A stretch of DNA of 64,000 nucleotides from Exiguobacterium acetylicum (GTDB lineage Bacteria; Bacillota; Bacilli; Exiguobacteriales; Exiguobacteriaceae). Position numbers and translations under genes: made by a program. The stretch spans positions 1,824,001 to 1,888,000 of the forward strand of contig NZ_CP081878.1 of NCBI RefSeq assembly GCF_022170825.1, given 5' to 3'. Of this stretch, positions 43,098 to 61,017 are shown piece by piece (positions within the stretch are counted from its first letter, which is position 1; every line of letters starts with the position of its first letter). The notes below the pieces were generated by a model. The model saw only the letters and a program-made list of their open reading frames with translations. It had not been told where the DNA came from and did not search any database.

Positions 43098-43772
43098 TCA
43101 GAAAAGTGTGTTCCAAGTAGCTAGTCCAACAACGCCATCTGTGTCGAGTTTCTTTCGCTTCTGATATGCGCTGACTTTCGTTTCTGTCTGTTTATCGTAC
43201 TTACCTGTGACCAACGCACCTACTGCGCGTTGGATCCGCTCGACGTCTTTCTGTTTCATTCCTTTTGCTCCGATATACAACGGTTTGCCCGGGAATGGGA
43301 CGATGGCTTTTCCGTCTCCGTGTGCCGGTTTTGATTTAGCTGCTGGAGCAGTTCCGAGCATTTTGTCCGTACCGTATCCTTTGTACTCATACTGCAGATG
43401 CGGGGAATCGATGAAGGTCTCGTCGCGTTGGTTGCCGTCCGAATCCCAGTCCCCGCCCCACGTGAAGCCGAGACGTTGCGCTTCCTTGATGGCTTTTTTG
43501 ATGTCAGCACGCCCGTAGCCACTCCAGTAGACTTTACCGCTCTTGTCAGCTGGTACGAAGTCGAGTGCTTGTCCGACCAAATGATAAGAATACATTGTCT
43601 GTGACGCGCCCGAGTCAACATTGTCCTGTTGTTCTTTGAGAGTACGTCGTGCATCATATACCAGGATCTCGATACCATTTTTGACCAGGTATTCGTACCA
43701 TTTCATGGCTAGGGCGCGTGTGTTTGGTGCAAGTTCAGCTAGGGTCGTGCGGTTTCGTTTGTCGTAATACAT
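43098..43772 (-). CDS. Phage endolysin: M15 L,D-peptidase + PG-binding domain
   Basis: 224 residues. Catalytic M15C/VanY-like domain (about 1-135): the Zn ligands are in YSYHLVGQALDF (HxxxxxxD) and SPHLQYEY (His); YDARRTLKEQQ is the usual lead-in. Cleaves peptide bridges or stems of peptidoglycan. A linker with K/P and then a PG_binding_1 domain (about 165-224; VERIQRAVGALVTGKYD...DGVVGLATWNTLF) anchors it. No signal peptide, so release depends on the adjacent holin (1-bp overlap). Confidence 0.92.
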   Translation of the reverse strand: MYYDKRNRTTLAELAPNTRALAMKWYEYLVKNGIEILVYDARRTLKEQQDNVDSGASQTMYSYHLVGQALDFVPADKSGKVYWSGYGRADIKKAIKEAQRLGFTWGGDWDSDGNQRDETFIDSPHLQYEYKGYGTDKMLGTAPAAKSKPAHGDGKAIVPFPGKPLYIGAKGMKQKDVERIQRAVGALVTGKYDKQTETKVSAYQKRKKLDTDGVVGLATWNTLF

Positions 43773-44302
43773 TATTTTGCCTCCTTTTGATTTTCATCGT
43801 GATGAACATCCGACTTCACTTCTGCAATACTCACTTCACTTGAAATCGGAGTGACCTGTTCTTCTTGTGTGGCTGCTGTCTCAATGATCGTGTCGACAGT
43901 GCGTGGTTCCTTTTCTCCTTGAAGCTGTGTCAATGCATCAATCATTTGTTGCGGCATCGGTACGTTCAAGAGACCTAGATTTTCCGCAACAGATAGTCCT
44001 TCTCGTGCGATGTAATAATACAAAGCTAGCGTCCGGACAATCGGCAGTCCACCATTGATCAATTCATCGAGTAAGACCGCAATGATGACGACGATAAACA
44101 CGACGCCCTTTCGAATGCCACCCCAGAACATGACATCACTGTTCACACGTTTGTACTTATACGCTGCTAAAAATCCCGTTACATAATCGACAATCATTAA
44201 AAATACTAGAATCTTCAATGCAGCGTCCCAACCTCCAAACAATGCTGTTACTACAGTACCTAGCACCGCAAAAGCACCTTCAATTAAATGATGTGTCCTC
44301 AA
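43772..44302 (-). CDS. Phage holin (holin family 4 / Cph1-like)
   Basis: 176 residues with three hydrophobic segments (about 8-25, 32-48, 62-85) and the family motif MIVDYVTGFLAAYKYKRVNSDVMFWGGIRKG. The C-terminal ~60 residues are an acidic, extended tail longer than in many holins. TTG start at 44302 after GAGGTGAAGGACA. Forms membrane lesions for endolysin access. Confidence 0.9.
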   Translation of the reverse strand: MRTHHLIEGAFAVLGTVVTALFGGWDAALKILVFLMIVDYVTGFLAAYKYKRVNSDVMFWGGIRKGVVFIVVIIAVLLDELINGGLPIVRTLALYYYIAREGLSVAENLGLLNVPMPQQMIDALTQLQGEKEPRTVDTIIETAATQEEQVTPISSEVSIAEVKSDVHHDENQKEAK

Positions 44303-44355
44303 TGTCCTTCACCTCAACTCTTCATTTTTATAATAAAGTCCGTGCGTTACCACCA

Positions 44356-44391
44356 ATACAAAAGAGCGATACCTAATGGATATCGCCCTTT
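44356..44391 (-). terminator. Hairpin after the lectin-fold fibre gene
   Basis: Minus strand AAAGGGCGATA-TCCATTAGG-TATCGCTCTTT then TGTATTGG; weak U-tract, so partial termination before the lysis genes is possible. Confidence 0.6.
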
Positions 44392-44427
44392 ACGCTTGAC
44401 TGGTTATCTACTACTCACTAACAAAAA

Positions 44428-45483
44428 TCAACCAATGAATGCAGACCGGAATCCAGCTGTTGAAGATAGCTGTGTACGAGGACGCGCAACATTTAAGAAA
44501 AACAGTCCAGTTGCTGAACCACTAGACCAGTCACCACCACGAAATGCGATTCTTGTCCCATAGTTACGAACTTCTAAGGTATCTAAACCATGAGATCCTG
44601 CAGTCGGAGCGACTGCCAAGTATTTTAATAATTCCGGAACAGTGTAACCACTTTTTGATGGCATTAATTCAAACGTCTGGAAGTTATAGACGTAGACATT
44701 ATCTAAATCACCAAGTGTCGACATTGAATTTGTTCGATCTGCTGCAAATTGAATAGATCCAGGCGCTCTTGTAGCAGTTGTATCCGCACTTCCGGGTAAT
44801 GTACTGTCAATAAATACGCCAGTATCAACCCATGTTGCTAAGCTATTCGGATCCGTTCCAAAATCATTGTCTTTGTGCGTCCAAATTTTTCCGTTTACGA
44901 GTCGAAGACCATCAACAAATTCACTTACATTTCCGTTTAAATCGTAAATTCCAGATGTTGTACCATCATGAGACCACGCTACAGGACCAGATCCGGTTAA
45001 CACCTTATCCGGTGTGCTCGGATTCACGAGTCGACCAGATTCATGAGTTGATGCATGATCTTTACCAAAAGCATTGTTTCCTCGTGGCAAAAATCCATTT
45101 TTCTTACACCATAGTGCGATGGCCGCCCATTCGGCATTTGTCATCAAGTGCCAGCCTGTTCCTTTTGCTTTGCAAGCTGCTGAAGCTGCATCGATGTTTA
45201 GATTAGTGGCTGGGTTCATGCCAGGGAGACTGTACGCTCGTCCATCATGAATGATGTTCTGATACTTAGAAATCCAAATCCCGTCCTTGACGACACCATT
45301 GACGATGAACGCCGGGTGTGGGGATGCTGGTGCGCCGTCGATGACGTCCGCTAAATTGAAACGTGGTACGAACACCATGATGGATGGATTGCCTTTGTCG
45401 TCATATATGACGGTATTTCGACCGCCGGACGCGGCTTCTACTGCTTGACGATACGTGTCTTTTACTGAGAGTACGAATGGCAT
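44428..45483 (-). CDS. C-type-lectin/FGE-fold phage protein resembling a diversity-generating retroelement target
   Basis: 351 residues. Central NAEWAAIALWCKKNGFLPRGNN, GIYDLNGNVSEFVDGLRL and the C-terminal RIAFRGGDWSSGSATGLFFL...GFRSAFIG are the formylglycine-enzyme-like (SUMF1/FGE) C-type lectin signature. In DGR variable proteins this same final ~40 residues form the receptor-contact surface. N-terminal ~60 residues likely attach it to the fibre. No reverse transcriptase or template repeat is seen within the window. Probable receptor-binding tip; activity as a DGR target is inference. Confidence 0.85.
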   Translation of the reverse strand: MPFVLSVKDTYRQAVEAASGGRNTVIYDDKGNPSIMVFVPRFNLADVIDGAPASPHPAFIVNGVVKDGIWISKYQNIIHDGRAYSLPGMNPATNLNIDAASAACKAKGTGWHLMTNAEWAAIALWCKKNGFLPRGNNAFGKDHASTHESGRLVNPSTPDKVLTGSGPVAWSHDGTTSGIYDLNGNVSEFVDGLRLVNGKIWTHKDNDFGTDPNSLATWVDTGVFIDSTLPGSADTTATRAPGSIQFAADRTNSMSTLGDLDNVYVYNFQTFELMPSKSGYTVPELLKYLAVAPTAGSHGLDTLEVRNYGTRIAFRGGDWSSGSATGLFFLNVARPRTQLSSTAGFRSAFIG

Positions 45484-45869
45484 TATTCTACGACCTCCAC
45501 GACTTCATTTTGTGATGTTTCTTGCTCCGATTCTTGTTCCGCACGCTTTCGCTCGAGATACACTTGCGGGAGTGGCCATAAGTTCAGGATGACCTTTTGC
45601 ATGTCGAGTGGTAGGTCGACTACTTCGCCCCCCTCGTCCGTTTCGATGTATTCCTGTTGACGCGCTGGTACGATGATTGTCGCGACATACCAAGCGCCTA
45701 GTCCTTCGCGCATCGTCTCTAGGCTGTTATCGAGACAGACATCAATCGTACGATCGATATCCCCTTGACGTGATGCCAAATCAATTTCTACTTGATCCTC
45801 AAAACGTAAGACGCCGTTCCGGAGCGAAAAGGCAACCGTTTCACCGGCTGCCACTTTTTGAATAATCAT
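45483..45869 (-). CDS. Phage fibre-region protein, unknown
   Basis: 128 residues from ATG 45869 with GGAGG upstream. Beta-rich N-terminal half and acidic, E/Q/V-rich C-terminus. Position between fibre gene 45889 and the lectin-fold gene suggests a role in fibre assembly. No motif recognised. Confidence 0.65.
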   Translation of the reverse strand: MIIQKVAAGETVAFSLRNGVLRFEDQVEIDLASRQGDIDRTIDVCLDNSLETMREGLGAWYVATIIVPARQQEYIETDEGGEVVDLPLDMQKVILNLWPLPQVYLERKRAEQESEQETSQNEVVEVVE

Positions 45870-45888
45870 TATTTGTTCCTCCAATCAC

Positions 45889-46389
45889 TCATGAAATTTG
45901 TGGGTTGAGCAAGGTCCAGGTAAACGAAATCGATTTAGACGTGCTAGTCGACATGACCTTGAACCCGTTCTGCGTTTTCTCGATAACGCTCAACGTCCCA
46001 GCATCTGCTGGATCGTTCGGTGTCACGATGACTTCATAGTCCGGTGCATTGGCTTGTGGGAACCCGGTCAAGGCGACCATGACGACCGGATCAGCTGAAC
46101 GGTAATAGCCATTGTCTACCGTTGTATTCGTGATTGTCGCTTTTCCTTGCAAGAACTTCTGCTTCTTCAACTTCTGTAATTCGAATTCGTTCGACGTAGC
46201 GATTTGAGTTGCAATCATGGCGAGCAGACCGATATCATAATGACCAATCAAGACGCCCGCTTCTAAGTTGTTCATGTTTTCTTCGTCAATCGGCGTCCCT
46301 TGTACGAGGACAGATCCGTTCTGATCGTCTAGGACCCGGTCTTCCCATTCGGTTGGTTCATAAAAACGACTGCGATGTAATTGTGACAT
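45889..46389 (-). CDS. Phage tail fibre-like protein
   Basis: 166 residues. N-terminal MSQLHRSRFYEPTEWEDRVLD...GTPIDEENMNNLEAG pattern is common in short Gram-positive phage fibre/neck proteins (G-T-P-x-x-x-x-x-x-M/L-N-N), with a C-terminal beta-sandwich-like portion. Downstream of baseplate gene I. Function by position. Confidence 0.6.
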   Translation of the reverse strand: MSQLHRSRFYEPTEWEDRVLDDQNGSVLVQGTPIDEENMNNLEAGVLIGHYDIGLLAMIATQIATSNEFELQKLKKQKFLQGKATITNTTVDNGYYRSADPVVMVALTGFPQANAPDYEVIVTPNDPADAGTLSVIEKTQNGFKVMSTSTSKSISFTWTLLNPQIS

Positions 46390-46392
46390 GTT

Positions 46393-46695
46393 TTACGTCA
46401 CCTCCAATTTGAATTTAAACTCGAACAATCTTCCTTTGAGGGCTTCGTGTTGCACGTTCGGGTTGATTTGAGCATATACTTGCCCAGCTTCGTTAAATAA
46501 TCGAACGCGCGACACCAGTCCAATTGGTGATCGCGTCGTCAAGTAGACATGCTTGATCACGGTATCACCGGAAACAATTGATCTTCGAACTTTTGCCGGA
46601 TAGGTCGTCGCGCCAATCGTGAAGTCTGCTGACACGCAATTCGTATCAATCGTCTTAGCGAGATCGTTGACTGCAATCGGTTGAAGAATACTCAT
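46393..46695 (-). CDS. Phage tail/baseplate-region protein, unknown
   Basis: 100 residues, beta-rich (YPAKVRRSIVSGDTVIKHVYL...GLVSRVRLFNEAGQVY). Overlaps the stop region of gene I by 4 bp (ATGA). No family recognised. Confidence 0.6.
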   Translation of the reverse strand: MSILQPIAVNDLAKTIDTNCVSADFTIGATTYPAKVRRSIVSGDTVIKHVYLTTRSPIGLVSRVRLFNEAGQVYAQINPNVQHEALKGRLFEFKFKLEVT

Positions 46696-47675
46696 CCGTT
46701 TTCTCCTTTCGTTGTATACGTGACGCCTGAGAACGACAACGTGGACAATCCACCTTTATACGTACTTTGCGTCCGGTTCAAGGCGTCTTCCAGCACGCCG
46801 TCGTTACTCGACTGGTAGGATGTCTTCGGTGGACTCGCCGTTCCGGCTTGTTGTGCGGATTGCCACCCCACCTCTTCTTGGGTCGCCGTTCCCGTAAATC
46901 CGTTCAGCAATTCATTTGCCACTTGCGGCACCGATGCGGTTCCAAGACTCCGTTCTTCCACGACAAAAAGCGTCGTGTCGTTTTTTCGACCGACGTTTAC
47001 GTGATTTTCTTTTTCTCCGGAGAAGATACTGCCGCTGATCCGAATCGCACCCGTTCCGTTTTTGTACGAGCTGACTGCTCGTGAGAGGACGAGCGTTGAG
47101 CGTCCGGGCATTCGAATCCCGCAGCGGACAGCGATGACCGGATGGATATGAATCTTACCGTTTTTATAGATGACGCGGTAATAAATCCCTTCACCACGCT
47201 TGAACCAGATGGCTTCGAGACGAGAACTAAACCGTTTGTTGGCGTTGACTGCACGGAAAACGACAGGCAAGTCTTTCTCGCTCCGTAGCGGCCCATCAAT
47301 CTCGATCTTGAAGAAGTAGGGTTCTCCGTCATAATCAAACCACTCGACGATTTGGGCACGATCCAAGAGAATCGATACTACTTCTTCGATGGCGGCGACT
47401 GTTCCCTTCCGGCGGTGGATTCGCCATGAGTTCCGGATCAGTTGTCGTTTTTGATCCGGCGATAGAGTCTCGTCGTAATAATCGACGTGATTTTCTTTAG
47501 CGACGATATCCAGTAAGCGTTCAGCAAGCGGCATCCGTGGATCCAGTATCGATGTCTCATCAAATACCTGCTGCAACATCAATGTGATGGCTTCGGCAAG
47601 CGCATGGTTTTCTTCGTTATTCTTAATCGATGCTGGCAGGATGTCATTGAGTGAAAAATTATTGAGATCAATCAC
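46692..47675 (-). CDS. P2 gpI-like tail/baseplate protein
   Basis: 327 residues from GTG 47675 after GGAGGG, overlapping the end of J. LDPRMPLAERLLDIVAKENHVDYYDETLSPDQKRQLI resembles the gpI core; P2 I is about 176 residues, so the C-terminal ~150 residues are an addition, possibly a beta domain that holds the fibre. Confidence 0.78.
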   Translation of the reverse strand: MIDLNNFSLNDILPASIKNNEENHALAEAITLMLQQVFDETSILDPRMPLAERLLDIVAKENHVDYYDETLSPDQKRQLIRNSWRIHRRKGTVAAIEEVVSILLDRAQIVEWFDYDGEPYFFKIEIDGPLRSEKDLPVVFRAVNANKRFSSRLEAIWFKRGEGIYYRVIYKNGKIHIHPVIAVRCGIRMPGRSTLVLSRAVSSYKNGTGAIRISGSIFSGEKENHVNVGRKNDTTLFVVEERSLGTASVPQVANELLNGFTGTATQEEVGWQSAQQAGTASPPKTSYQSSNDGVLEDALNRTQSTYKGGLSTLSFSGVTYTTKGENG

Positions 47676-48780
47676 TGACGAACCCTCCAAACGTGACGTT
47701 GATCGTCCGTTCGAACGCGACCTGATGTTTCGCTAAGGCGATGAACTGGTTCGGCTCGACGATGACGCGTTTCGCGCCTGCCTGTTGGATGCGTGCATAC
47801 AGTTCACCGGGATCTACGCCCCGTCCCATCTTCGAACGCTGCCAGAGATGGTATTCATGGATTGCGTCCGTCACCTGTTGTTGATAATACGATTGCAAGG
47901 AACGTGCGCTTTCTGGCAGGTAATAAGATACCGACAAGTCATAGGGAACCCGAACGGCAGCGGCGACCGTCACGTAGTCCGTTAGCGGACGAATCGATTT
48001 GTCGTTGCATGTCTCACTGACCTTTTGTAGGACTTCCGTTGACGGGAGTGCACCTTGTTCCATCAAGACATACAAAACGACACGTCCTTGTGATGGGGTG
48101 ACCGTTGCGACATCGATGATGCCTTGATGCGCGGATTTGGCATGATAGATATACGCTAGTTCAGGACCTGCCGTCGAGAACCCTTCTGGTGATAACCAAA
48201 TCCGTTCTGCATACGGGTCGTCCTCTTCTCGGTCTGTCCCACCGAAGCTCTCCGTCACGTTAGAGACAGCTGCGACGTGCGGTACCGGTTCAATCAATTG
48301 ATTGATTTGACCTGGTAGGTAACCGTTACCTAATAAACCACTCTCGACACAACGACCGACAATATCGATTTGTCCGATATTCGCCGGAACGAGCGTATCG
48401 GTCTTAATCTCGAACTGTACGTCTCCTGCCCCGATCAAAAATCCTTGAAAAATCGTGAATGGTACCGTATTCGTCACCTCGAACCGGAAAGTAGCTTCTG
48501 CCGCTTGCGCTTCCAGTCGCGGTACCTCACGTTCCGAACCGATGTGATCAAGGTAATCATCTTGTGCATAGGTCAGGCGGGTCTGTTTACCGGTGAAATC
48601 GATGTTATTCGCAAGCATCGAGGCGACAAGTGCGACCGATTGCAATAACTTCCGGCGCGGATCGGCTTCATTCAACGTCGTTCCGATCAGTCCTTCGAAC
48701 GTCGAGACACCTAAGTTCTCTAATTCTTCGACGTCACTCGAGATGTACTCAATTTCTGGCAGGTTAAACCTCGCTGTCAT
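47668..48780 (-). CDS. Baseplate J-like protein
   Basis: 370 residues, normal gpJ size. Contains the family blocks LENLGVSTFEGLIG...DPRRKLLQSVA, a beta region with GLLGNGYLPGQINQLIEPVPHVAAVSNV, and SFGGTDREEDDPYAERIWLSPEGFSTAGP. Forms the baseplate periphery. ATG 48780 overlaps the W gene by 17 bp. Confidence 0.93.
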   Translation of the reverse strand: MTARFNLPEIEYISSDVEELENLGVSTFEGLIGTTLNEADPRRKLLQSVALVASMLANNIDFTGKQTRLTYAQDDYLDHIGSEREVPRLEAQAAEATFRFEVTNTVPFTIFQGFLIGAGDVQFEIKTDTLVPANIGQIDIVGRCVESGLLGNGYLPGQINQLIEPVPHVAAVSNVTESFGGTDREEDDPYAERIWLSPEGFSTAGPELAYIYHAKSAHQGIIDVATVTPSQGRVVLYVLMEQGALPSTEVLQKVSETCNDKSIRPLTDYVTVAAAVRVPYDLSVSYYLPESARSLQSYYQQQVTDAIHEYHLWQRSKMGRGVDPGELYARIQQAGAKRVIVEPNQFIALAKHQVAFERTINVTFGGFVSD

Positions 48781-49087
48781 TTGTAATCACCACCTTCACC
48801 GTTGCGGATAGCTTGCCTTCTAATGGTTTGTCTTCAATCAAGACATCTACTACATCGACCTCTGGAATCGACCGTTCGATTTTCTCGATGATTTGCGCTG
48901 ATAGAGATGCCCTCGCATACGACGTCGGATCATCGATTGGTGGATCCAATCCGAATTCGCGGTGCATAGGACAAGAATCGACCAGCGTAGATAAGAGGAA
49001 CGCGATACTTTGCAACGTAGCGAACGTGCCCGTCGCGCCATAATCAATCGCACCATCGACGGATGACGATACGCTGTAGGTGTCCAT
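48764..49087 (-). CDS. GpW/gp25-family baseplate protein
   Basis: 107 residues from ATG 49087 after GAAGGAGGG. Core FATLQSIAFLLSTLVDSCPMHREFGLDPPIDDPT matches the gp25/W inner-baseplate wedge domain; initiates baseplate wedge assembly. Confidence 0.85.
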   Translation of the reverse strand: MDTYSVSSSVDGAIDYGATGTFATLQSIAFLLSTLVDSCPMHREFGLDPPIDDPTSYARASLSAQIIEKIERSIPEVDVVDVLIEDKPLEGKLSATVKVVITNDSEV

Positions 49088-49104
49088 GCCTTCCCTCCTT
49101 CGAA

Positions 49105-49767
49105 TCACGATTTTTTAAAGTTGGTATACGTCGAAACAGCTGAGACGTACTGACCGTTCCCGAGATAATACCATTTGATGCCGCTACCTGATACGATCTT
49201 GTACACCTTGAACGAATAGCCCTTCCGCAAGACGCGGACAATCCGGGCATTCAAGTTCGGACTGACCCGACAGTTCAACATCCCGACTTTCACCGTAGCG
49301 GTACCGGTCGTTGATTTCTTCGTCGGTTTTTTCGCAGGCGGTTTCTTCTTCGGTTTGTTCCGGACTGGCTTATTCTTCGGATATTCCTTCAGGGTCAATG
49401 TCGCTTCGATCGTATGCGATACGCCTCTGTTGTCGATGTTCCGGTGTGTCTCTTGAATATCTTCCAAGTAGAAGTATCCACTCGTGACCGGTTTGCTTCC
49501 GATGATCAACGAGGAGTACTTGCCTGCATCTCGAAAAGCGCGCAGCTTCTTCATCGTCGATTCCGGATTGACACCATGCGATCCTTTGAGCAGCACCTTA
49601 AAGCTGACACTTTCTTGACCAGCTCCCACGAATTCGGGGAGTGGCTTCTGAAGATTGATGTCATGTACCGCCCAACGGGCACTACTGGACCGCGAGAAGT
49701 CGTCGAAGGTCAACGCTTTCTTCGAAGAGACCTCGAACACGACACCAGCAAAACTTCCAATCCGCAT
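49105..49767 (-). CDS. P2 gpU-like tail protein fused to SH3-type domain
   Basis: 220 residues. N-terminal ~130 residues match the gpU tail-terminator/completion family (ARWAVHDINLQKPLPEFVGAGQESVSF, LKKLRAFRDAGK-like). A K/P-rich linker of ~25 residues (NKPKKKPPAKKPTKK) leads to a bacterial SH3-like domain (about 158-215; VGMLNCRVSPNLNARIVRVLRKG, IKWYYLGNGQYVS), a cell-wall-binding module. P2 gpU lacks this extension. Confidence 0.85.
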   Translation of the reverse strand: MRIGSFAGVVFEVSSKKALTFDDFSRSSSARWAVHDINLQKPLPEFVGAGQESVSFKVLLKGSHGVNPESTMKKLRAFRDAGKYSSLIIGSKPVTSGYFYLEDIQETHRNIDNRGVSHTIEATLTLKEYPKNKPVRNKPKKKPPAKKPTKKSTTGTATVKVGMLNCRVSPNLNARIVRVLRKGYSFKVYKIVSGSGIKWYYLGNGQYVSAVSTYTNFKKS

Positions 49768-49786
49768 CCGGATTCCCCCTTCTTAC

Positions 49787-50191
49787 TCATTTCGTGACGA
49801 AGGCATTCGCCTTGATCGTGCCATTGACAATCAATTCGCCATCCGGATGTAGGTTGACCGTCATCTTTTTGGTTTTCTCGTCGTATTCGACGAACGCACC
49901 ATCCTTGAACTGCAGATGTCGTTTCGTCTTGACCTTCGTCGGTGGTAGATCTACCTCGTTATAGGCACTCCCTAACACGTACCCTCGCTTGGATGTCCCT
50001 TCTAAAAAGCAACACAAAACGAGTTCATCGATGTCCGGATACCAGATGTCTTTATCCTTTTGCGCACCACGGACGAGCATCGAGAGTTCACGCGACACGA
50101 CGTCATCTGACCCTTTGTCTTCGAACCGGACGCGGACCGTCGCACGATCCGGATAGATGGCCGTAACATATCCATGATCCAGCAACCGCAT
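49787..50191 (-). CDS. Baseplate spike/assembly protein (gpV-like)
   Basis: 134 residues from ATG 50191 after GGAGGG, overlapping the D stop codon (TAATG). OB-fold N-terminus (HGYVTAIYPDRATVRVRFEDKG) and a beta repeat C-terminus (KMTVNLHPDGELIVNGTIKA), as in gpV/gp45 spikes. Pierces the envelope during injection. Confidence 0.82.
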   Translation of the reverse strand: MRLLDHGYVTAIYPDRATVRVRFEDKGSDDVVSRELSMLVRGAQKDKDIWYPDIDELVLCCFLEGTSKRGYVLGSAYNEVDLPPTKVKTKRHLQFKDGAFVEYDEKTKKMTVNLHPDGELIVNGTIKANAFVTK

Positions 50192-51213
50192 TAATATCCC
50201 TCCAAGCATTTGCGTAATTCGAGTGAGGTATCAGTTCCCTTGCCTACGCTTGCGGACATCGACGTGACGAGATACTTGCCATTGAATGACCCGAAATCTT
50301 TCAACGTAACGACTTGACCTGCGAAGACGTTCAAGAACCCTGCCAATACGACAGAAAAGGTGATCGCATCCTTATTCGCTTCACGTAGCTTTTTACGAGC
50401 AAGCGTCGCCGCTGCCGCTGATGATTTGACCTCTTCATTGATGTAAAGGACGCGAGACGTCGCGGGTGCCTTCGATGGCGTGAAAACATAGCGATAGGTC
50501 TTCTTCTTTTTGGGGTCGGTATATTTGACGGAACACGAGCGGTACATCGTCGTCAAAGCGTCTTTACCACTATATGACTTCATTGCTTTATCCTTACGCG
50601 AGATGATCATGACACTCGTTCCTTTTTCCAAACGTTCCTCATCCAAGATGATGATCTTCTTGTTCGCTACCTTCAGGGACAGACCAGCATCTCCGCATAA
50701 CTTCATCAGAAACGCCAGATCCGTCTGTCCTTCCTGGTCAATCCGGTCGTACGACGGGTTCTCGTCTGCTGAAAAGTAGAGAGACATTCCATTCGCTTTC
50801 GCGATGGCTCCCGCTATCGCTTTCAGACTACTTTTCTCCCACGCGCGTGACTTACCAGATTTCCGCAAAGAAGAACTTTCAGGAACTGACAAGCCGCGGA
50901 CGTTCGACGTCATCGGTGGTCCACTGATACCGAGTTCGTCAATTTCAAAGATGCCCAGGAAGCGGGATTTCGCTTTCGAGTCGTCCCATCCCGTCGAAAC
51001 GAGCAAGGACGCCTTCAAGACCGAACCTTTTTTCGGACGCCATTGATTGTTCCAGCGTCCTTCCCGATCACTGAGCGTCAAGCTGAGACTATCCGATTCA
51101 CCCGATAAGTTGTCTCTGAAAGACAACGACTCGATGAAGTCTTCAATCTCAGTCGTGACGTTGACATTGTCATAGATGACATCTGGTCGAATTCTTCTCC
51201 CGACGCTGCTCAT
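50191..51213 (-). CDS. Phage late control D / tail hub protein (gpD)
   Basis: 340 residues from ATG 51213, overlapping gene X by 4 bp (ATGA). LSLTLSDREGRW, LGIFEIDELGISGP and the LKAIAGAIAKANGM...YDRIDQEGQTDLAFLMKLCGDAGLSLKVANKKI block are typical of the gpD/gp27-like hub. Sits between tape measure and spike. Confidence 0.88.
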   Translation of the reverse strand: MSSVGRRIRPDVIYDNVNVTTEIEDFIESLSFRDNLSGESDSLSLTLSDREGRWNNQWRPKKGSVLKASLLVSTGWDDSKAKSRFLGIFEIDELGISGPPMTSNVRGLSVPESSSLRKSGKSRAWEKSSLKAIAGAIAKANGMSLYFSADENPSYDRIDQEGQTDLAFLMKLCGDAGLSLKVANKKIIILDEERLEKGTSVMIISRKDKAMKSYSGKDALTTMYRSCSVKYTDPKKKKTYRYVFTPSKAPATSRVLYINEEVKSSAAAATLARKKLREANKDAITFSVVLAGFLNVFAGQVVTLKDFGSFNGKYLVTSMSASVGKGTDTSLELRKCLEGY

Positions 51214-51467
51214 CCGTATGCACCTGCCCCGAGTGATGGTTCCGTCATTTCGGCATCCCCATCGCCTTCGAGCCATTCGGGTTCATCTGTGTAGATCATT
51301 TCTTGTGGTGGTTCCGGGATTTGCAACGACACACCCGCTGAAAAGATGAGGGTCAGACGATGCCGCGGATTACTCGCTACAATCTCCGGGAACAAATATT
51401 CACTTCCAAGTTCGCGTAGGGCGATCCGATCAAACGTATCGCCCGACAACGTGACATAGGTTTTCAT
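51210..51467 (-). CDS. Tail protein X (LysM-like)
   Basis: 85 residues. TYVTLSGDTFDRIALRELGSEYLFPEIVASNPRHR is the gpX LysM-type fold. Acidic C-terminus. ATG 51467 12 bp after the tape measure stop, with GGAGGTGCAGGG upstream. Confidence 0.88.
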   Translation of the reverse strand: MKTYVTLSGDTFDRIALRELGSEYLFPEIVASNPRHRLTLIFSAGVSLQIPEPPQEMIYTDEPEWLEGDGDAEMTEPSLGAGAYG

Positions 51468-51479
51468 CCCTGCACCTCC

Positions 51480-54400
51480 TTATGCAAACCGTGTCCGGTT
51501 CCGATCTGATTCATGTTGGCGTAACCAGCGCATGAACTTCGCTTCTAAATCTGCTTCTTTTTCTTCATCGATCCGTCTGAGCATCTCTTCATCGACATTG
51601 CCTTTGATGTGATAGACAGGCGAGTAGACGAACTGAGCGGAGGTACTCATCGAACCATTCGAGACTGGTGAAGCATCTGACGTGAACAAGCTCCGCAACG
51701 GGTTGATGCCTTGTTCCTTTTTCATGCCGAGTCGTGAACCGATCGTCGACAGCAGGTGTGCCGCTCGTCCTCGCTTACTTGGTGACAGCGGGATGATGGC
51801 TTCCGGACCAGCTTCACCGACGAGCCCCATGTGTGGGCGATTGATGATGCCACCGTTTTTATACGGTAAGTAAGCACCACCACGCATCATGCTCCGAATA
51901 CCCGGATGATTCATGATTCCACCATACCGACCATCCATGTAGCGGATTGCGGCAAGAGCGGAATCGAGCGGGTTTCTCCGGTTATTGTGACCCGGGTACT
52001 TCCAGCGCTGGAACGTCGAGTTGATGATCTGGAAGAGTCCGACGGACGGATCACCACGCTGGGCGTTGATGTCCCAATCATTGATCGCGTTCGGATTGAA
52101 TCCAGATTCCTTTTGCGCGATCGTCATCATCGGACCAAGCAAGCTAAGCGGTTTACTCGTCATCATCAACGCTTGTGAGATGGCTTTTCTCGCCATTTCG
52201 GCACCTTGCCCGTTGAAGGCTGCACCGAGACTCGATGCAGACATGTCCGGTAGTTTTCCTTTAAGGTACTTCGTTGCATGTTTTTTGATCATCGAGAACG
52301 CGCCACTTGCGATAGCACTTAAATTTTTCGGTAAGGTTGGTACACCGACACCGAACACTTCTAATGCTTTCGATAGCAGTTTAGATGGATTCGAAACGTA
52401 ATCGTAGACATCAAACGCAATGTCCTTCGCTTTTCCAGCCTTGTCCATCGCGTAATCTTTCGCTGTTGTCGCCTTATCCTTGACGTAACTGCCTGCTGTT
52501 TTCAACGCATCCGTCACCGTACCGTTTTTGTAGGCAGGTATGTTGTACCGCTCCATCAGCATCCGTGTATCACGGGCATTGATGACTTGCGTACCTTTCG
52601 GAAGGTTCATCAACGTGTCGCGTGCTGGACTCATCCCGACAAAGCCACTTGGTGTGCGATACAATTCGGGACCTGCGTTTGTTCCACGTCCATCGCCGAG
52701 GATTGCTGGACCACCTGGGTGTCCTTTCGTTCCTCTAGCGTATTGCGGAACGGGCCACTGTTCGAGCGTGATATCGACACCCACTTTTCCGAGTGCCCAG
52801 TTCAGACCTTTGATGACGCCATTGACCACTTTTCCGATTCCTTTTAGCAATTTGTTGCCAAGCGATGTAATCCCAGATTGCGCTTTGCTTGCCATGTTTC
52901 GGATTCCTTCACCCATTTTCCCAGGTAAAGCACGTGCCCCGGAAACGATGTCATCGAAAATCTTTTTGACACCATTCCACATCGATCTGGCAATCGAAAC
53001 CGCCGATTCTTTTGCACTGCGGAATCCACTTGCAATTCGCGAACCCATATTGGTCACGAAATTTTGAGCACTCGTCACACCTGATGAAAATGCCGATTTA
53101 ATAGCGGACCATAAATTTGAGATGATCGTTGTCGCGTTTGATTTCAGATTCCCGAAGATTCTAAGTGCTTTCGAGACAAGACCGGAAGCATATCCGTAGG
53201 CTGCATTCGCTCCTGATAAGAAATAAGACTTCACAGAACTCCATAGCTGCATGATTATATTAACTGCATTCGATTTCAAACTACGGAAAATTTGTAACGC
53301 TCTCGTCACAAGACTCATTGCATAACCATAAGCCGCACTTGCTCCGGACAAGAAGAAAGATTTCACTGAATTCCAGAGTTGAAGGACGATGCCAACGATA
53401 CTCGATCGCGCATTCTGGAACCGTATGATCGTCTTGACGAACATTCCCAGCACGAAGTTATACGCTCCAGTCGCACCAGCGGAAAAGAAGGACTTTATTC
53501 CAGACCACATGCCGGAAATCTGCGAGACAGCACCCGTCTTCAAACGAACCAAGGCTTGTCCGATTTTTGAACCCCATCCACTGACCAGTAGATAAGCGTC
53601 ATCAATTCCTCGGGTGAACCACGATTTAATCGAAACCCACAATGCCTTGACGCTTGTGACCATTCCGAGACCCATCGCCTTGACTCCACCAATGATTCGT
53701 CCGAGAAACATCAAATTGACGTAGTTCCAGACGAACTGAATCGCTCCGAAGAAGAGTTGCTTGACGCCTTGCCACATTTTCGAAAAATCACCCGTAAACA
53801 ACCCAGCAAAAATCCGTACAATTCCCATGATCATATTTATCGCGCCCTGGATGACGCCTTGGACGTTTTTCCAGATCGACATCAGAATCGGGACAATTAC
53901 CGGTGCCAAAAATTGAATGATTTTTGAAATTCCGGAAAACACATTTTGGACCGCTTGAACAATTTGCGCACCGTCCGTCGCCCAGAATGAGATAATTTGC
54001 CGAGCAATTCCCATAATGAACGTCCCGATTTGTACAAAAATCGGCTTCAGAACCGTTAAAATCGTACGCACGACGCCAATGATTCCGCCAATGACTGCAC
54101 CAACTGTTTTAAACACATTCGAAACAGCCGAGACGATCATCGGACCGTTATTCTGCCAAAATGTATACAGCGTCATAAAGGCTTGCGTCGCAACCGACGC
54201 AATACTTCGAAACGCGCTCAACGCCTGGGCACCAAGTGCGCGGAAGGTCGGAGCGATATTTTGGAGGACACTTGACACGCGAGACCGCAAGGAATCGAAC
54301 TGTCCAGTCGAACCAGTGACCATCTCTTGGATGATTTGTGCAAAGCTCTTGATGGCAATCCCTGCGTTCAAAGCTTTACTGATCAATCCGGTGAGCGCGT

Positions 54401-55391
54401 CGAGTCCGGTCAAGACCGCTGGACCTAATGGCGCGACCTGTTTGATCACACCACCTAAAATACCGCCTAGATTCCCGAGTAGACTCAGGAAAGTCGGTGT
54501 ATTCTGTTTCGCGTATTCGATGAACGTCTTGAAACCTTCTGATTTCGAGAGACTGGCTGCCCATTGCGAAAAGCCACGTGCCGCTCCGACCATCCCACTT
54601 TCGACGGATGCTGTGATCGGTGTGAACGCCTGCAAGAGGCTGAACAAGCCTTTTGTCGTATGACCGATCGTCTTCATCAGCGCTACGAGCGAACCCGCTG
54701 CACTATCTGAAATCCAATTGAAGATGCTTTTCATATCCTTCGAACCGAGATCGTTCTGCATATCTTTCAGCAATCCATTCACCGCACCGCTGACGTTGTG
54801 AATCGTCGGCTTCATCAACTCGAGTCCTTGCTTGGCAATCGAGAGTGACGTGGCGAATCCTTTAAAGATTGGCTCTTCGAAACTGGTGACGAATCCCTTC
54901 CAGTACTTCTTGAAGTTCTGCAGGTTCTTCAGCGCACCTTGTTGCGCCTTACTCATGTCCGCATAGACGGCCGCTAGTTCTTGCTGGGCTTTCTTTCGCT
55001 CTTCAGCTGTATCGGCATCCGCGATCTTGTCTTCTGCTTTCTTCACTTCGTCCGCTGCGTCAAACACCTTTCGTAGTGCAGCCGCCGCGACGACACCATA
55101 TGCCGCTGCTCCAGCTCCCGCTGACGCAAAGGATGCACCGACCGCACCGACACCTGCGACGACGGGCGCTGTCATAGCGGTGACGCCACCAAGCGCGTTC
55201 GTGATCGCAGAAACGGCACTGACTGCTTTTAATGTCGTCACAGACATCTTCGCCATCTTGTCACGCGCATCTTCCGTCTTTTCTTCCAGCTTCGAAATCT
55301 GTCTCTGCGCAGAACTGAAAGCGGCACGCATCGAGGAATTGACCTGACCCGCTAAATGGAACGCAATCTCATATACCCGTGGACTAGCCAT
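51480..55391 (-). CDS. Tail tape measure protein with internal repeats and SLT domain
   Basis: 1303 residues. N-terminal coiled coil (about 10-50), a chain of hydrophobic helices (60-110, 410-560), four 44-residue repeats (617-792; consensus K-S/x-x-W-S-x-V/I-K-S-F-F-x-S-G-A-x-A-A-Y), a glycine-rich segment with PGGPAILGDGRG, and near the C-terminus a soluble lytic transglycosylase-like domain (about 1085-1160; AQKESGFNPNAIND with catalytic Glu, GLFQIINSTF, AAIRYMDGRYG). Sets tail length and locally opens the wall. Overlaps the chaperone -1 frame by 8 bp. Confidence 0.93.
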   Translation of the reverse strand: MASPRVYEIAFHLAGQVNSSMRAAFSSAQRQISKLEEKTEDARDKMAKMSVTTLKAVSAVSAITNALGGVTAMTAPVVAGVGAVGASFASAGAGAAAYGVVAAAALRKVFDAADEVKKAEDKIADADTAEERKKAQQELAAVYADMSKAQQGALKNLQNFKKYWKGFVTSFEEPIFKGFATSLSIAKQGLELMKPTIHNVSGAVNGLLKDMQNDLGSKDMKSIFNWISDSAAGSLVALMKTIGHTTKGLFSLLQAFTPITASVESGMVGAARGFSQWAASLSKSEGFKTFIEYAKQNTPTFLSLLGNLGGILGGVIKQVAPLGPAVLTGLDALTGLISKALNAGIAIKSFAQIIQEMVTGSTGQFDSLRSRVSSVLQNIAPTFRALGAQALSAFRSIASVATQAFMTLYTFWQNNGPMIVSAVSNVFKTVGAVIGGIIGVVRTILTVLKPIFVQIGTFIMGIARQIISFWATDGAQIVQAVQNVFSGISKIIQFLAPVIVPILMSIWKNVQGVIQGAINMIMGIVRIFAGLFTGDFSKMWQGVKQLFFGAIQFVWNYVNLMFLGRIIGGVKAMGLGMVTSVKALWVSIKSWFTRGIDDAYLLVSGWGSKIGQALVRLKTGAVSQISGMWSGIKSFFSAGATGAYNFVLGMFVKTIIRFQNARSSIVGIVLQLWNSVKSFFLSGASAAYGYAMSLVTRALQIFRSLKSNAVNIIMQLWSSVKSYFLSGANAAYGYASGLVSKALRIFGNLKSNATTIISNLWSAIKSAFSSGVTSAQNFVTNMGSRIASGFRSAKESAVSIARSMWNGVKKIFDDIVSGARALPGKMGEGIRNMASKAQSGITSLGNKLLKGIGKVVNGVIKGLNWALGKVGVDITLEQWPVPQYARGTKGHPGGPAILGDGRGTNAGPELYRTPSGFVGMSPARDTLMNLPKGTQVINARDTRMLMERYNIPAYKNGTVTDALKTAGSYVKDKATTAKDYAMDKAGKAKDIAFDVYDYVSNPSKLLSKALEVFGVGVPTLPKNLSAIASGAFSMIKKHATKYLKGKLPDMSASSLGAAFNGQGAEMARKAISQALMMTSKPLSLLGPMMTIAQKESGFNPNAINDWDINAQRGDPSVGLFQIINSTFQRWKYPGHNNRRNPLDSALAAIRYMDGRYGGIMNHPGIRSMMRGGAYLPYKNGGIINRPHMGLVGEAGPEAIIPLSPSKRGRAAHLLSTIGSRLGMKKEQGINPLRSLFTSDASPVSNGSMSTSAQFVYSPVYHIKGNVDEEMLRRIDEEKEADLEAKFMRWLRQHESDRNRTRFA
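53016..53543 (-). repeat. Four 132-bp direct repeats in the tape measure gene
   Basis: Units at 53543-53412, 53411-53280, 53279-53148 and 53147-53016, each 44 codons. Units 2 and 3 are the most similar (SGAxAAYGYA shared); units 1 and 4 are more diverged. Would let tail length change in 44-residue steps by recombination. Confidence 0.85.
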
Positions 55392-55907
55392 CCTTGCTCA
55401 CCTCTTTCATGTCTGTCACAAAGTCACTCAACTCGTACAAGCGCAACTTCAAAAAATAATCGACACTCGTATGCGAGGCAGACGAAAGACGGATGCATAC
55501 TTTACGTACGATCCGTCCAGTCACCTTGATGTAGTGTCGATAGTTCTGTGTTTCAATGATGCCTAGGCGTTCAAAAAAGTGATCACCGTATTCTTGACGA
55601 TGATCGCTTCTTTTGCTGGGAGCTTGTCGAAAAACTGTGTTGGTTGTTTCAATACGTTCGCCGCAATGGCGAAGGCATATCCCATCGAGAGTTCTGGGAT
55701 TGGTGACATGTTGCCCCCAGCAGAGTACACACGATCCGCTTCTAGTAGATCCTCTCCTGTCAGGTCTTCGATGCCAGACAAATCGATGGATGCATACGTC
55801 TTTCCTTCGAAGTTGTACGGTTTTTTGAAGACGATGACGCCTTCCTTCTTTTCGATTGGCTCCTGTGTTGCATCGACTGGTGTTTCTAACGTAGTAGTAT
55901 CTTTCAT
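55384..55907 (-). CDS. Tail assembly chaperone, -1 frameshift fusion product (GT/E+E' type)
   Basis: Long product of a programmed -1 shift: residues 1-112 come from the 55563-55907 frame, then the ribosome slips on T TTT TTG (55578-55572) and continues as ERLGIIETQNYRHYIKVTGRIV... for ~61 residues to the TAG at 55384. This is the arrangement and the same heptamer used by P2 E/E+E'. The fused form bridges tube subunits and tape measure during assembly. Confidence 0.75.
55563..55907 (-). CDS. Tail assembly chaperone, short form (gpE/TAC family)
   Basis: 114 residues. GVIVFKKPYNFEGKTYASIDLSGIEDLTGEDLLEADRVY is the TAC_7-type core; APELSMGYAFAIAANVLKQP-like helix follows. Located between tube and tape measure, as required for this role. 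ATG 55907 follows AGAGGAGAATG. Stop TAG at 55563, three codons after the slippery heptamer. Confidence 0.88.
   Translation of the reverse strand: MKDTTTLETPVDATQEPIEKKEGVIVFKKPYNFEGKTYASIDLSGIEDLTGEDLLEADRVYSAGGNMSPIPELSMGYAFAIAANVLKQPTQFFDKLPAKEAIIVKNTVITFLNA
55572..55578 (-). promoter_or_regulatory. -1 ribosomal frameshift heptamer
   Basis: Zero-frame codons ACT TTT TTG contain T TTT TTG (X XXY YYZ) nine nt before the zero-frame stop; the -1 frame stays open for ~60 codons. GCCTAGGC immediately downstream is self-complementary; no long pseudoknot was derived by eye. Confidence 0.8.
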
Positions 55908-55938
55908 CGCAAATCATTCTCCTCTGTTTGGTTAGTTT

Positions 55939-56457
55939 TTAGATCAGTTTCTTCATGCCGCCGAGTTGGTCTTCCCCATTGAGCTTGTAGATGAAGTTGA
56001 TTTTGTCGAGCTCGAGTAAGACTTTACCGTCTAGTTCGACTTTCATGTAGATGACTTCAAGAACGCTCGTCGTTTCCGTCTGGACGTTGACGCCGATCTT
56101 CCCTGGATTCAGTCCCTTCGGTTGACCTTTCAGTGTGATTTTTAGACCGCGGAAGGATACGACACCTGATGCAAGGTCATAACTTTGTTGCGCTGCTCGC
56201 AGGACAATCGAGCGGTTCTTGTTGCGTTGCAAGTCGAATGATTTATCAAGCAATGCGCGGAACTGCAGTTCGATGGACATCGGACCGAAATGTCCGATGG
56301 AGACACTGTCGTACTCCCCGAGAATACCCGCTCCGGAAACAGTCTCCGTGAGCGGTTCAAGGTTTGGTAACGTCACTTCGCCTGTGACGGCGACCAGTTT
56401 GTTCGTATCGTCATAGACGTTATAGTTGACAATTTTTTCAGGGATTGGATTACTCAT
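55939..56457 (-). CDS. Contractile tail tube protein (P2 FII-like)
   Basis: 172 residues, normal length. NYNVYDDTNKLVAVTGEVTLPNLEPLTETVSGAGILGEY and the C-terminal KVELDGKVLLELDKINFIYKLNGEDQL match the FII tube family. Forms the inner tube. Overlaps the sheath stop by one base (TAATG). Confidence 0.93.
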   Translation of the reverse strand: MSNPIPEKIVNYNVYDDTNKLVAVTGEVTLPNLEPLTETVSGAGILGEYDSVSIGHFGPMSIELQFRALLDKSFDLQRNKNRSIVLRAAQQSYDLASGVVSFRGLKITLKGQPKGLNPGKIGVNVQTETTSVLEVIYMKVELDGKVLLELDKINFIYKLNGEDQLGGMKKLI

Positions 56458-57908
56458 TATTGCCCTCCTCCAAATAATGCGTTAGTCAAGATCGTCGGAT
56501 CGAACTCTAGGATGTTCGTGATTTGTTCCGCTGGTGAGTATGCTGCGAAACGTTGGATGAAGACGATCTTGCCGTTCAGGATATTCGTGACCGGGTTGAG
56601 TTCTTCACGGAACTCCATGACCGCACCCGCGATTTGACCACGTGCGACATAGCCGTTCGCTCGGAGGTTCTCGCTGTCGACGATCGATTCGATAAGACGG
56701 AAGTTCGTCGGATCATCGACTTTCTGGAAGTACGTCAAGATGAACGTGTTGCCCCACCAGTTGAACATGCGACGGATCGTGATGAAACGGTCTTTTGGGT
56801 CGGTCGTGTTCGGATATGCCGCGGTGTTGTTCCCCCATGTCTTCCAGCCATTCCAGTTCAACGCTGTGACAATCCCACTTCCGTTGAGATGGTTCGCTTC
56901 CAACTGATCGAGGTAGACTTCGACGCCATCTTTCCGGACTGCTGCCGTGATTGGGAATCGTTCGTTCGATGGTGATTCGAATGGGACGGAATCGTTCCGC
57001 GCATCGACCGATGCAATCGTCGCTGCGTAAACACTCGAGAAATGGAGTTTCCGGTCACCGATCTTGACCATTGGCCAACAAGCAATCGTGTATTCACTCG
57101 TATAGCCGTTCGTCTCTTTCCATGCCGATACGTCTTCGTACGACTTGACGGTATCGCTGTTCAAGTCACTGACCGCCATCGCCTTGAACGTACCGTTGAT
57201 GCTTTTCGCTTTCGCATCGAGGATGATGCCGACCTCCGGGATGTGACTCCAACCCGGTGCAAGGATCAATCCAGGCAACACATTGAACATCGGATAGACC
57301 GAGCGAATCAATTCAGCACCCTTATATTTTTTCGTGATGGCGTCATATCCGCCGATAATGTCCGTTTTCGTGACAAGTGACGGATCTAATTTGTCGAAGG
57401 TAAGCGTCAAGGCGGCATTCACTGGGACAACCGTACTAAGGAGCGTCAATACTGGTTTACCGTCTTGATTGAAGGCAATGATGTAGTCAACGTTCTTGAC
57501 CAGCGTCGTCGTGTTCTGTTTGACGACGACCGAACTCAATAGGACGCCATCGACATTGACGACACCTTTCCCCGCGACGAGCGTCAGCGGATGCGACGGG
57601 ACATTGACTTTATGGACTGCTGGGTCCAAGACGTTAATGAAGACGACAGGTGCGACGGACGCGACTTGGAACGACGCATAGATGGCTTCACATAATGTAA
57701 ACGCGCTGAAGTTATCGCTGTAGCCGAGCATATCGACTGCGGCACTCCGCGTATACGCTAGGATAGGTTTGTTGACGGCTGCCGTCGGATCCGCTGTCAA
57801 GTGGACCGGTGCCGTACCGATGACGACTTGGATACTTGAATCCGCTGTGATCGGTGGCGTAACGGACGTCGGGTTTTCCAGTAGGTTAATTCCGTGTTCG
57901 TAAGGCAT
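56457..57908 (-). CDS. Tail sheath protein (P2 FI-like)
   Basis: 483 residues. HGINLLENPTSVTPPITADSSIQVVIGTAPVH start, LILAPGWSHIPEVGIILDAKAKSI, and ...NTTDPKDRFITIRRMFNWWGNTFILTYFQKVDDPTNFRLIESIVDS near the C-terminus are contractile sheath blocks. Stacks as rings around the tube. Confidence 0.95.
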   Translation of the reverse strand: MPYEHGINLLENPTSVTPPITADSSIQVVIGTAPVHLTADPTAAVNKPILAYTRSAAVDMLGYSDNFSAFTLCEAIYASFQVASVAPVVFINVLDPAVHKVNVPSHPLTLVAGKGVVNVDGVLLSSVVVKQNTTTLVKNVDYIIAFNQDGKPVLTLLSTVVPVNAALTLTFDKLDPSLVTKTDIIGGYDAITKKYKGAELIRSVYPMFNVLPGLILAPGWSHIPEVGIILDAKAKSINGTFKAMAVSDLNSDTVKSYEDVSAWKETNGYTSEYTIACWPMVKIGDRKLHFSSVYAATIASVDARNDSVPFESPSNERFPITAAVRKDGVEVYLDQLEANHLNGSGIVTALNWNGWKTWGNNTAAYPNTTDPKDRFITIRRMFNWWGNTFILTYFQKVDDPTNFRLIESIVDSENLRANGYVARGQIAGAVMEFREELNPVTNILNGKIVFIQRFAAYSPAEQITNILEFDPTILTNALFGGGQ

Positions 57909-58222
57909 TATTGTTCACTCCCTGCGTATTCTAAAATGGCTTGCGATAGGACGGCTTCTTTAGAACCTAATTCTTTCGCTGATTGCTCGGATGCCGCCAG
58001 TTGGTCGACTGGAATCAACATTCCGCGGATCGCTGGACATTTTGAGATGTGTTCCTCGACGTAAGGTGGTAATCCGTTTTGGAAGACGGCGTATTTTTGA
58101 AGGTTCTTCAAACTGGGACCGACATAGATCGACGTGACCACTTGTTGTCGCACTTCCGGTACATCCACTGGTGCGACGTCGACTTGCTCGACATCGACTT
58201 GTTTGTCTTTTCGTGTACTCAT
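57908..58222 (-). CDS. Small phage protein upstream of sheath
   Basis: 104 residues. V/D-rich N-terminus then VTSIYVGPSLKNLQKYAVFQNGLPPYVEEHISKCPAIRGMLIP, a compact alpha/beta pattern seen in short proteins just before sheath genes in Bacillales myophages. Role unknown. ATG overlaps the neighbour's stop (4 bp). Confidence 0.7.
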   Translation of the reverse strand: MSTRKDKQVDVEQVDVAPVDVPEVRQQVVTSIYVGPSLKNLQKYAVFQNGLPPYVEEHISKCPAIRGMLIPVDQLAASEQSAKELGSKEAVLSQAILEYAGSEQ

Positions 58223-58701
58223 AAGAGAGATTCCACATCCGTTCTCGTGTGATTTGGTGTTGCAAAGTCTAATTCAAGGACGCCGATGAAATACGGGTCG
58301 GTGTCTTCTTCATTGATCCGCCATTTCAGAGGTAATTCCAGTTCATACTTGCCATCGATGATGGGACGTTTGATCAAATCCTCTTCAATGTCGTTCATGA
58401 TCTGAACGAGATCGATGTACCCGTTGTTGCTCGAGATGCCTGATACCTCGAACGCATCGAACGTTCCGACGATCAGACCGATTTTCGACATCGGTTGAAT
58501 CTGTTCCGTCTGCCCACTTCCCTCGATCATCTTGACGATGATGAATGGGAACGGCGAATCTTCCTCACTCGTCTTCTCTGGCAAGCGTTGCTTGTGAATG
58601 GTGACGGGTGCCGTCTCGCCGCTCGGTGTCGGAAACTGCTTATTCGCGAACAACATCCGTAATCGGTCTTCTAGCGTCGTCTGTAATCCAATCGGAATCA
58701 T
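58219..58701 (-). CDS. Phage tail-completion-region protein
   Basis: 160 residues, mixed alpha/beta; contains FPFIIVKMIEGSGQT and VQIMNDIEEDLIKRPIIDGKYELELPLKWRINEEDTDPYFIGVLELDF, the layout of head-tail or tail terminator-like proteins. Between minor tail Z-like and the 57908 gene. Assignment by position. Confidence 0.65.
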   Translation of the reverse strand: MIPIGLQTTLEDRLRMLFANKQFPTPSGETAPVTIHKQRLPEKTSEEDSPFPFIIVKMIEGSGQTEQIQPMSKIGLIVGTFDAFEVSGISSNNGYIDLVQIMNDIEEDLIKRPIIDGKYELELPLKWRINEEDTDPYFIGVLELDFATPNHTRTDVESLL

Positions 58702-59264
58702 TCTTGTAACCCCCTGCTCAAGATGCGGTCGATTTCGTGATCCAACCGACGATAGAAGGTGTTGCGTCCTTCAATATTGATTTGTCTTCGGTTGACGTCG
58801 TTGTCGAGCATCTGCGGCACCGACGGACCGAACAATCGATCAATCGGTAACCGACGGTCCGTTTGCCGCTTGAAGACCTTGATGCCATGGACATCAGCGA
58901 CGAAAGCGCCTTTCAGTTTCTTGGCACCCGTCTTCTTGACGGCTGCCTTGATTGGTGTTTTTCGGTTCGGTGACACTTTTCTCGGGGATACCTTGAACCG
59001 GTCGAGCGGAATCAGATTGCCGCGACTGACGACGATGGCATCGATGTTGGCACGTGTAGCACGTGTTTTCGAAATCGTCTTTTTGATGTCCGTTGCCTTG
59101 ATGTGATAGCTCTTCCGCGTTTCCTTGCTGATGTTCGTCGCAACATTCGTCATGGCACGGTTCAAAGCGGAAGCGACGACTTGCGGGGCTTTCTTCTCGA
59201 ACGCGCCCAGTCGCCGTTTCACTTCATCCGTAACGGACTCGTTAACATTGATGGTCGGTCTCAT
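58698..59264 (-). CDS. Minor tail protein Z-like (HK97 gp10/GpZ type)
   Basis: 188 residues. FEKKAPQVVASALNRAMTNVATNISKETRKSYHIKATDIKKTI at the N-terminus matches the prophage minor tail Z family; basic and helical. Completes the tail at the neck. 4-bp overlaps with both neighbours. Confidence 0.78.
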   Translation of the reverse strand: MRPTINVNESVTDEVKRRLGAFEKKAPQVVASALNRAMTNVATNISKETRKSYHIKATDIKKTISKTRATRANIDAIVVSRGNLIPLDRFKVSPRKVSPNRKTPIKAAVKKTGAKKLKGAFVADVHGIKVFKRQTDRRLPIDRLFGPSVPQMLDNDVNRRQINIEGRNTFYRRLDHEIDRILSRGLQE

Positions 59265-59581: not shown

Positions 59582-59590
59582 GACGCGACC

Positions 59591-59965: not shown

Positions 59966-59967
59966 GC

Positions 59968-61002: not shown

Positions 61003-61017
61003 GTTGGTTCCTCCTAA

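Follow-up and report, generated by a model that had tools for sequence, protein, structure and literature searches.

Among described systems, the one closest in structure to the gene considered here is TaqVP, the variable protein of a diversity-generating retroelement (DGR) in a Thermus aquaticus prophage (PDB 5VF4), whose C-terminal variable region (VR) includes the variable residues D348, N351 and V354 according to the available text of its description (PMC6328139), and whose gene is adjoined by avd, the template repeat (TR) and the reverse transcriptase (RT). The homologous receptor of Bacillus phage BalMu-1 (43%) is followed, in order, by Avd, RT, holin and endolysin. The Pseudoalteromonas phages ACA1, ACA2 and proACA1-A carry a homologous antireceptor (35%) with a DGR; according to the accessible part of that article, siblings differ mainly in the VR and the RT of one prophage is frameshifted, and its authors note that recombination lets phages borrow antireceptors and that upkeep of a DGR needs repeated benefit (PMC10612066). 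Orphan DGR targets have also been reported: in the available excerpts, those of Treponema denticola are described as remnants for which the authors suggest loss (PMC4891356), and for all3226 of Nostoc it is suggested that the diversifier was removed once a good variant had been chosen (PMC7517822).

Here we analyse a prophage receptor gene of Exiguobacterium acetylicum, located in a window of 64,000 nucleotides (the whole stretch of DNA under study; contig NZ_CP081878.1, positions 1,824,001 to 1,888,000). Its product has a whole-length fold in common with TaqVP (TM 0.94, 38% identity) and a C-terminal VR as well, but the gene is adjoined by none of avd, TR and RT; compared with BalMu-1, the stretch from receptor to holin has lost Avd, TR and RT in what is very probably a deletion. 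Very probably, this receptor was once hypermutated by an adjacent DGR whose Avd-TR-RT block has been deleted, with the binding surface now fixed except for point mutation and allele exchange.

The receptor gene and the search for its retroelement

The open reading frame, which starts with ATG and contains zero internal stops (Table 1), matches phrog_2889 of PHROGs over residues 6-350 (E 1.6e-116), and FGE-sulfatase of Pfam barely above the cut-off (residues 83-190, 24.1 bits). An AlphaFold2 model, computed from an alignment of 41 window and locus proteins, reached a mean pLDDT of 90.4 and a pTM of 0.92, and its top three Foldseek matches in the PDB were TaqVP chains (TM 0.93-0.94, 38% identity), with the PvdO and EgtB enzymes, TvpA (2y3c) and Mtd (1yu0-1yu4) far below. 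A phmmer search of PDB sequences (E 0.001) returned 5vf4 (TaqVP) as the sole match (E 2.8e-64). PHROGs, model, Foldseek and phmmer thus place an FGE-type C-type lectin fold over the whole receptor length. The TaqVP residues D348, N351 and V354 align to D318, S321 and A324 of the window (with an inferred chain numbering offset of 4). The catalytic Ser-Cys-Cys of FGE (PF03781) is absent from the receptor: mapped through TaqVP on the basis of the available text of PMC6328139, the equivalents of human FGE Ser333 and Cys336 are D318 and S321, and A324 lies near the third catalytic position. By predicted fold, sequence and VR, the protein is a DGR variable protein, which bears out the sequence-only reading of a DGR-type lectin-fold receptor with a C-terminal R-G-G-D-W...G-F-R-S-A module, a motif present in the translation. 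The locus itself is not a DGR, because RT, template and Avd were searched for and not found.

Table 1. Coordinates of the receptor, its former variable region and neighbouring prophage features within the window.
Feature	Coordinates	Strand	Remark
DGR-type receptor (variable protein, FGE/C-type lectin fold, phrog_2889)	44428..45483	(-)	intact ORF, 351 aa
Former VR, residues 311-349, homologous to VR of template-bearing relatives	44437..44553	(-)	
Span of ten template-AAY-equivalent codons	44458..44532	(-)	by L011 template
Gap between receptor and holin, 125 bp	44303..44427	(-)	site of Avd-TR-RT in relatives
Holin (Phage_holin_4_1, PF05105)	43772..44302	(-)	now next gene after receptor
Endolysin (Peptidase_M15_4 and PG_binding_1)	43098..43772	(-)	
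Rest of prophage structural module inside window	45483..63966	(-)	baseplate I and J, hub, tape measure, sheath, head, portal; also some genes of unknown function

The gene neighbourhood is that of a contractile-tailed prophage: upstream of the receptor are genes for the portal, the head protease and major head protein, the sheath and tape measure, and the hub and baseplate J and I, with the terminase located outside the window. A search of the genus with baseplate J, aimed at the corresponding slot in sibling prophages, returned, besides itself, only two distant matches. The location after the baseplate genes and the annotation of homologues as antireceptor point to a putative receptor-binding tail protein of this prophage. 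As had been read from the sequence alone, holin and endolysin, not an RT, follow the receptor, and a profile search of the receptor-holin gap found no Avd or RT remnant. A terminator-like hairpin with a T run was read by eye between receptor and holin at about 44360-44392, and a different terminator-like hairpin occupies the same place in the sibling locus L010.

The host genome searched for DGR components comprises 3.36 Mb in 2 contigs and is estimated to be 100% complete. It yielded zero RVT_1 matches, both at E 0.001 and at E 10. Queried with proteins of L011, a relative with a complete cassette, it gave a lone RT match of 15.3 bits (E 0.015) with four in-frame stops at C1:1060366, far from the prophage and taken as chance, and zero Avd matches in a search that had no positive control by the same tool. 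Avd is common in DGR systems, though not universal. With all filters off, RT and Avd profiles, validated by the recovery of both in L120 and L121, found neither component in the window, and nothing convincing in the flanking 20 kb on each side (best Avd E 0.1). BLAST of the last 400 nt of the receptor against the genome returned, besides itself, only matches of 15-21 bp, at chance level; a similar DNA search of the L011 record, serving as positive control, did recover its template (E 2e-34). When the window and its 20-kb flanks were scanned on both strands with an adenine-tolerant ungapped comparison, the best score was 15, versus 57-108 for true templates. The RT with Avd and the near-copy template that the sequence-only reading proposed to seek in the rest of the genome were thus not found. 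No RVT_1 match occurs in the 36.7-kb, possibly incomplete record that holds L010, and the scan of 16 kb of it found no template above chance. Across the genus, 5 of 19 genomes searched have RVT_1 matches, and the window's own genome belongs to the other 14; on the DGR-RT profile built here, these matches score at most about 110 bits versus 519-592 for two DGR RTs, and the short stretches around them contain no Avd. Relatives of the receptor, sought in the order, occur in 1 of 38 genomes, which is the window's own.

The cassette among relatives

We compared the locus with the best 80 of 83 IMG/VR loci, 25 genome loci and five phage records picked from 52. The counts exclude four genome loci that duplicate viral records, and also L120 and L121, fragments of the L022 and L011 records. 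Each of the 75 relatives counted has an entire 3' end followed by 1900 bp or more of sequence, and together they amount to 70 distinct proteins when the VR is disregarded. A full RT, called where the profile built here matched over more than 200 positions, adjoins the receptor in 64 of them, including L119 despite its RT frameshift reported in the accessible part of PMC10612066; Avd and a detectable template accompany it in all 64. The remaining 11, all distinct, are without a full RT. In 77 VR/TR pairs, 978 of 1032 mismatches fall at TR adenines, so that 978 of 1810 adenines are changed versus 54 of 6805 other bases, a ratio that leans upward in that the scan score penalises non-adenine mismatches; the matches are 71-120 nt long and sit at a near-constant place (+430 to +593), as expected of DGRs. 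L011 (66% identical), the nearest relative beyond the pair formed by the window and L010, has a receptor directly followed by complete Avd, TR and RT. Somewhat more distant relatives are mixed, the cassette being present in some and absent in others, and the distant relatives L044, L085, L103 and L111 are also without it.

A protein tree of 99 rows, built without the VR and without duplicates and genes incomplete at the 3' end (quick IQ-TREE, SH-aLRT only, unrooted), has 18 rows labelled as lost, six of them with only 600-1200 bp downstream (L016, L017, L019, L033, L073 and L084), 73 as DGR, some of these resting on an RT cut by a contig end, and 8 as unknown. The cassette state changes 14 times on this tree, with at least 11 changes forced by starred branches; label shuffles require a mean of 16.6 changes and were as low as 14 in 21 of 500, the losses being only mildly clustered. 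The window and L010 are sisters and adjoin the template-bearing L011 (starred support of 99) within a set of 8 rows that includes 6 DGR carriers (starred support of 96). Gain and loss are indistinguishable on an unrooted tree; loss is favoured because partial cassette remnants persist in relatives. By profile, L098 has the start of Avd only, L033 the end of RT only, and L013 and L020 have Avd together with the RT end. In L073, Avd positions 1-46 and RT positions 294-355 occur in one open frame 76-318 bp past the receptor match, as if a deletion had joined two genes. Homology to DGR-bearing relatives ends 4-37 bp past the receptor match in L033, L099, L018, L016, L019 and L084, and later in L013 and L020 (+405 to +417), L073 (+220) and L098 (+209). 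Overall, the relatives suggest that DGR loss happens repeatedly in this receptor family.

Two further observations concern individual loci. In L013 (11513-12533) and L020 (5845-6865), a short ORF and a gene for a 254-aa LAGLIDADG endonuclease (PF14528, PF00961) replace the template and most of the RT, which raises the possibility that a homing endonuclease disrupted the DGR. L016 and L017 (the same as L092 and L091) are two contigs of one Parageobacillus thermantarcticus assembly with receptors identical in the tree and in the VR, possibly representing two prophages or an assembly fork; no Avd occurs in the 611 bp downstream of their receptors.

Divergence of the former variable region

Both the window prophage and L010 have the holin directly after the receptor, with no cassette between. 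Their proteins are 96-99% identical in 12 of 15 neighbouring genes and less so in baseplate J (93.2%), g177 (87.5%) and the endolysin (87.2%). Nucleotide identity in 150-bp bins is 93-99% in the tape measure gene and 88-96% in tail I, declines across the receptor (86, 81, 77, 75, 75 and 69%, then 63% in the bin with most of the VR) and recovers downstream (holin 84-93%, endolysin 77-88%). Judged from these alignments, the mosaic would most simply be accounted for by exchange of a diverged receptor allele; branch lengths in the protein tree are 0.14 for the window and 0.027 for L010. One shared loss and two separate losses are indistinguishable because the intergenic junctions of the two do not align beyond chance, and the search found no DGR-bearing sibling close enough to reveal deletion breakpoints. 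When L122, a sibling of the window, is aligned with the window, a gap of about 133 bp falls between the receptor start and the upstream gene near position 3850 of L122; the genes overlap in the window, and we read this as extra sequence in L122.

By homology to the templates of relatives, codons of the C-terminal VR match template AAY codons. Ten such sites follow from the L011 template (D318, S320, S321, A324, N331, A333, R334, Q338, S340 and T342), each being AAY in 51-75 of 77 templates; about seven of the 13 variable residues listed in the sequence-only reading fit them, and N331, A333 and R334 had been missed. The comparison with a sibling allele that had been proposed to reveal diversification shows differences between the window and L010 at 8 of 10 AAY sites, 7 of 29 other VR sites and 43 of 310 residues outside the VR (Fisher 0.003 and 9e-6 for AAY sites against the latter two), and at 14 of 20 first and second bases of AAY sites versus 11 of 58 in other VR codons and 53 of 620 elsewhere. 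At fourfold-degenerate sites of codons 1-310, 80 of 132 differ, and the change at AAY sites is not above this neutral level (p 0.47). The excess at adenine-equivalent sites anticipated for a diversified gene is therefore present relative to other coding sites, not relative to fourfold sites, while neither RT nor template was found. The AAY-site change could also stem from old, unconstrained divergence, the fourfold sites being comparably diverged, and hypermutation after the split of window and L010 is not demonstrated by rate alone, with fourfold sites nearly as diverged. The pattern says that the AAY sites are unconstrained or rewritten and gives no date for rewriting. In 11 other hand-picked, template-bearing pairs (87-100% identical outside the VR), 9-17 of the 20 bases differ.

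The third base is informative in another way: C or T is expected at AAY sites of a VR, since rewriting affects adenines alone and leaves the final T or C of AAY in place. Among 77 template-bearing relatives, 749 of 767 codons at these sites end in C or T (8-10 per gene). The window has 6 of 10, below all 77 and close to its own background of 53%; L010 has 9. Across the 17 cassette-lacking genes, the count is 6 in the window, L103 and L111, 8 in L097, 9 in L010, L016 and L099, and 10 in ten genes, a spread that we read as fresh and old losses. Both the window and L010 have GCA at site 324, and their ancestor may never have carried AAY there.

Explanations and known systems

The history that we favour would begin with the ancestral order receptor, Avd, template repeat, reverse transcriptase, in which the DGR would have rewritten about ten codons at the 3' end of the receptor by adenine-directed mutagenesis. 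Deletion of the Avd-TR-RT block would then have left the receptor ORF whole with the holin directly behind it, and a binding surface presumably frozen apart from point mutation and recombinational exchange of whole receptor alleles. The block was probably deleted in the window's own lineage, as opposed to an already-orphan allele having been acquired, and recombination probably now supplies receptor variation. Of the fates that the sequence-only reading had left side by side (a retroelement at another place in the prophage, one acting in trans, or its loss), loss is the one favoured by the DGR-free genome and the complete L011 cassette; the other two are disfavoured.

We regard it as very improbable that a DGR on another replicon or a co-infecting phage still diversifies the receptor in trans. 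The available parts of two articles do report DGR targets far from their RT (PMC4891356, PMC12629997), the VR scaffold is conserved, and L010 retains nearly all of its C/T-ending codons; yet RT, Avd and template are missing from the genome, second contig included, the RVT_1 matches of other genus genomes are weak on the DGR-RT profile, and the third-base pattern of the window has decayed. Equally improbable is a receptor lineage that never had a DGR, the window being an ancestral DGR-free member and its relatives having gained the cassette: state changes on an unrooted tree would fit this as well, and some distant relatives are cassette-free, but the window and L010 fall inside a group of DGR carriers, next to L011 with its complete cassette, the partial cassettes of L098, L073 and L033 indicate loss, and the adenine-equivalent sites are the most variable among coding sites. 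Finally, VR and TR are near-repeats able to mislead assemblers, and a cassette could in principle have collapsed out of the assembly. Such a collapse between VR and TR would have left an RT behind, which was not found, and the separate sibling contig with L010 shows the same cassette-free gene order, making an artefact extremely unlikely.

A broader proposal can be made, tentatively and with more doubt than confidence: DGR loss may be a recurrent, receptor-sparing route to specialisation in this phage family. Excision of the cassette behind the stop codon would leave a frozen receptor on which selection continues to act, and new specificities would arrive through recombinational allele exchange, of which the drop in nucleotide identity from about 97% in the tape measure gene to 63% in the VR, with recovery to 84-93% in the holin, would be the trace. 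Were this true, decay of the C/T third-base pattern would act as a clock for the time since DGR loss. With intact, partly deleted and fully deleted cassettes, the receptor family makes the cost and benefit of a DGR comparable, and the window and L010 provide two DGR-free receptors in closely related phages.

We recognised no report on this prophage or on repeated DGR loss in its receptor family in the accessible portions of the open-access literature, and found none pairing DGR topics with Exiguobacterium. Orphan DGR targets are already published, as far as the available text of PMC4891356 and PMC7517822 describes them, and the window receptor is another clear example. Compared with the ACA phages, in which the cassette is retained and broken by one frameshift (accessible part of PMC10612066), the cassette is absent from the window. 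According to the available excerpts, the targets of Treponema denticola and Nostoc all3226 resemble the window receptor in having no RT and TR in the genome or nearby; these cases come from bacterial genomes, whereas the window gene encodes the tail receptor of a phage that has a sibling, and its relatives show graded decay of the cassette.
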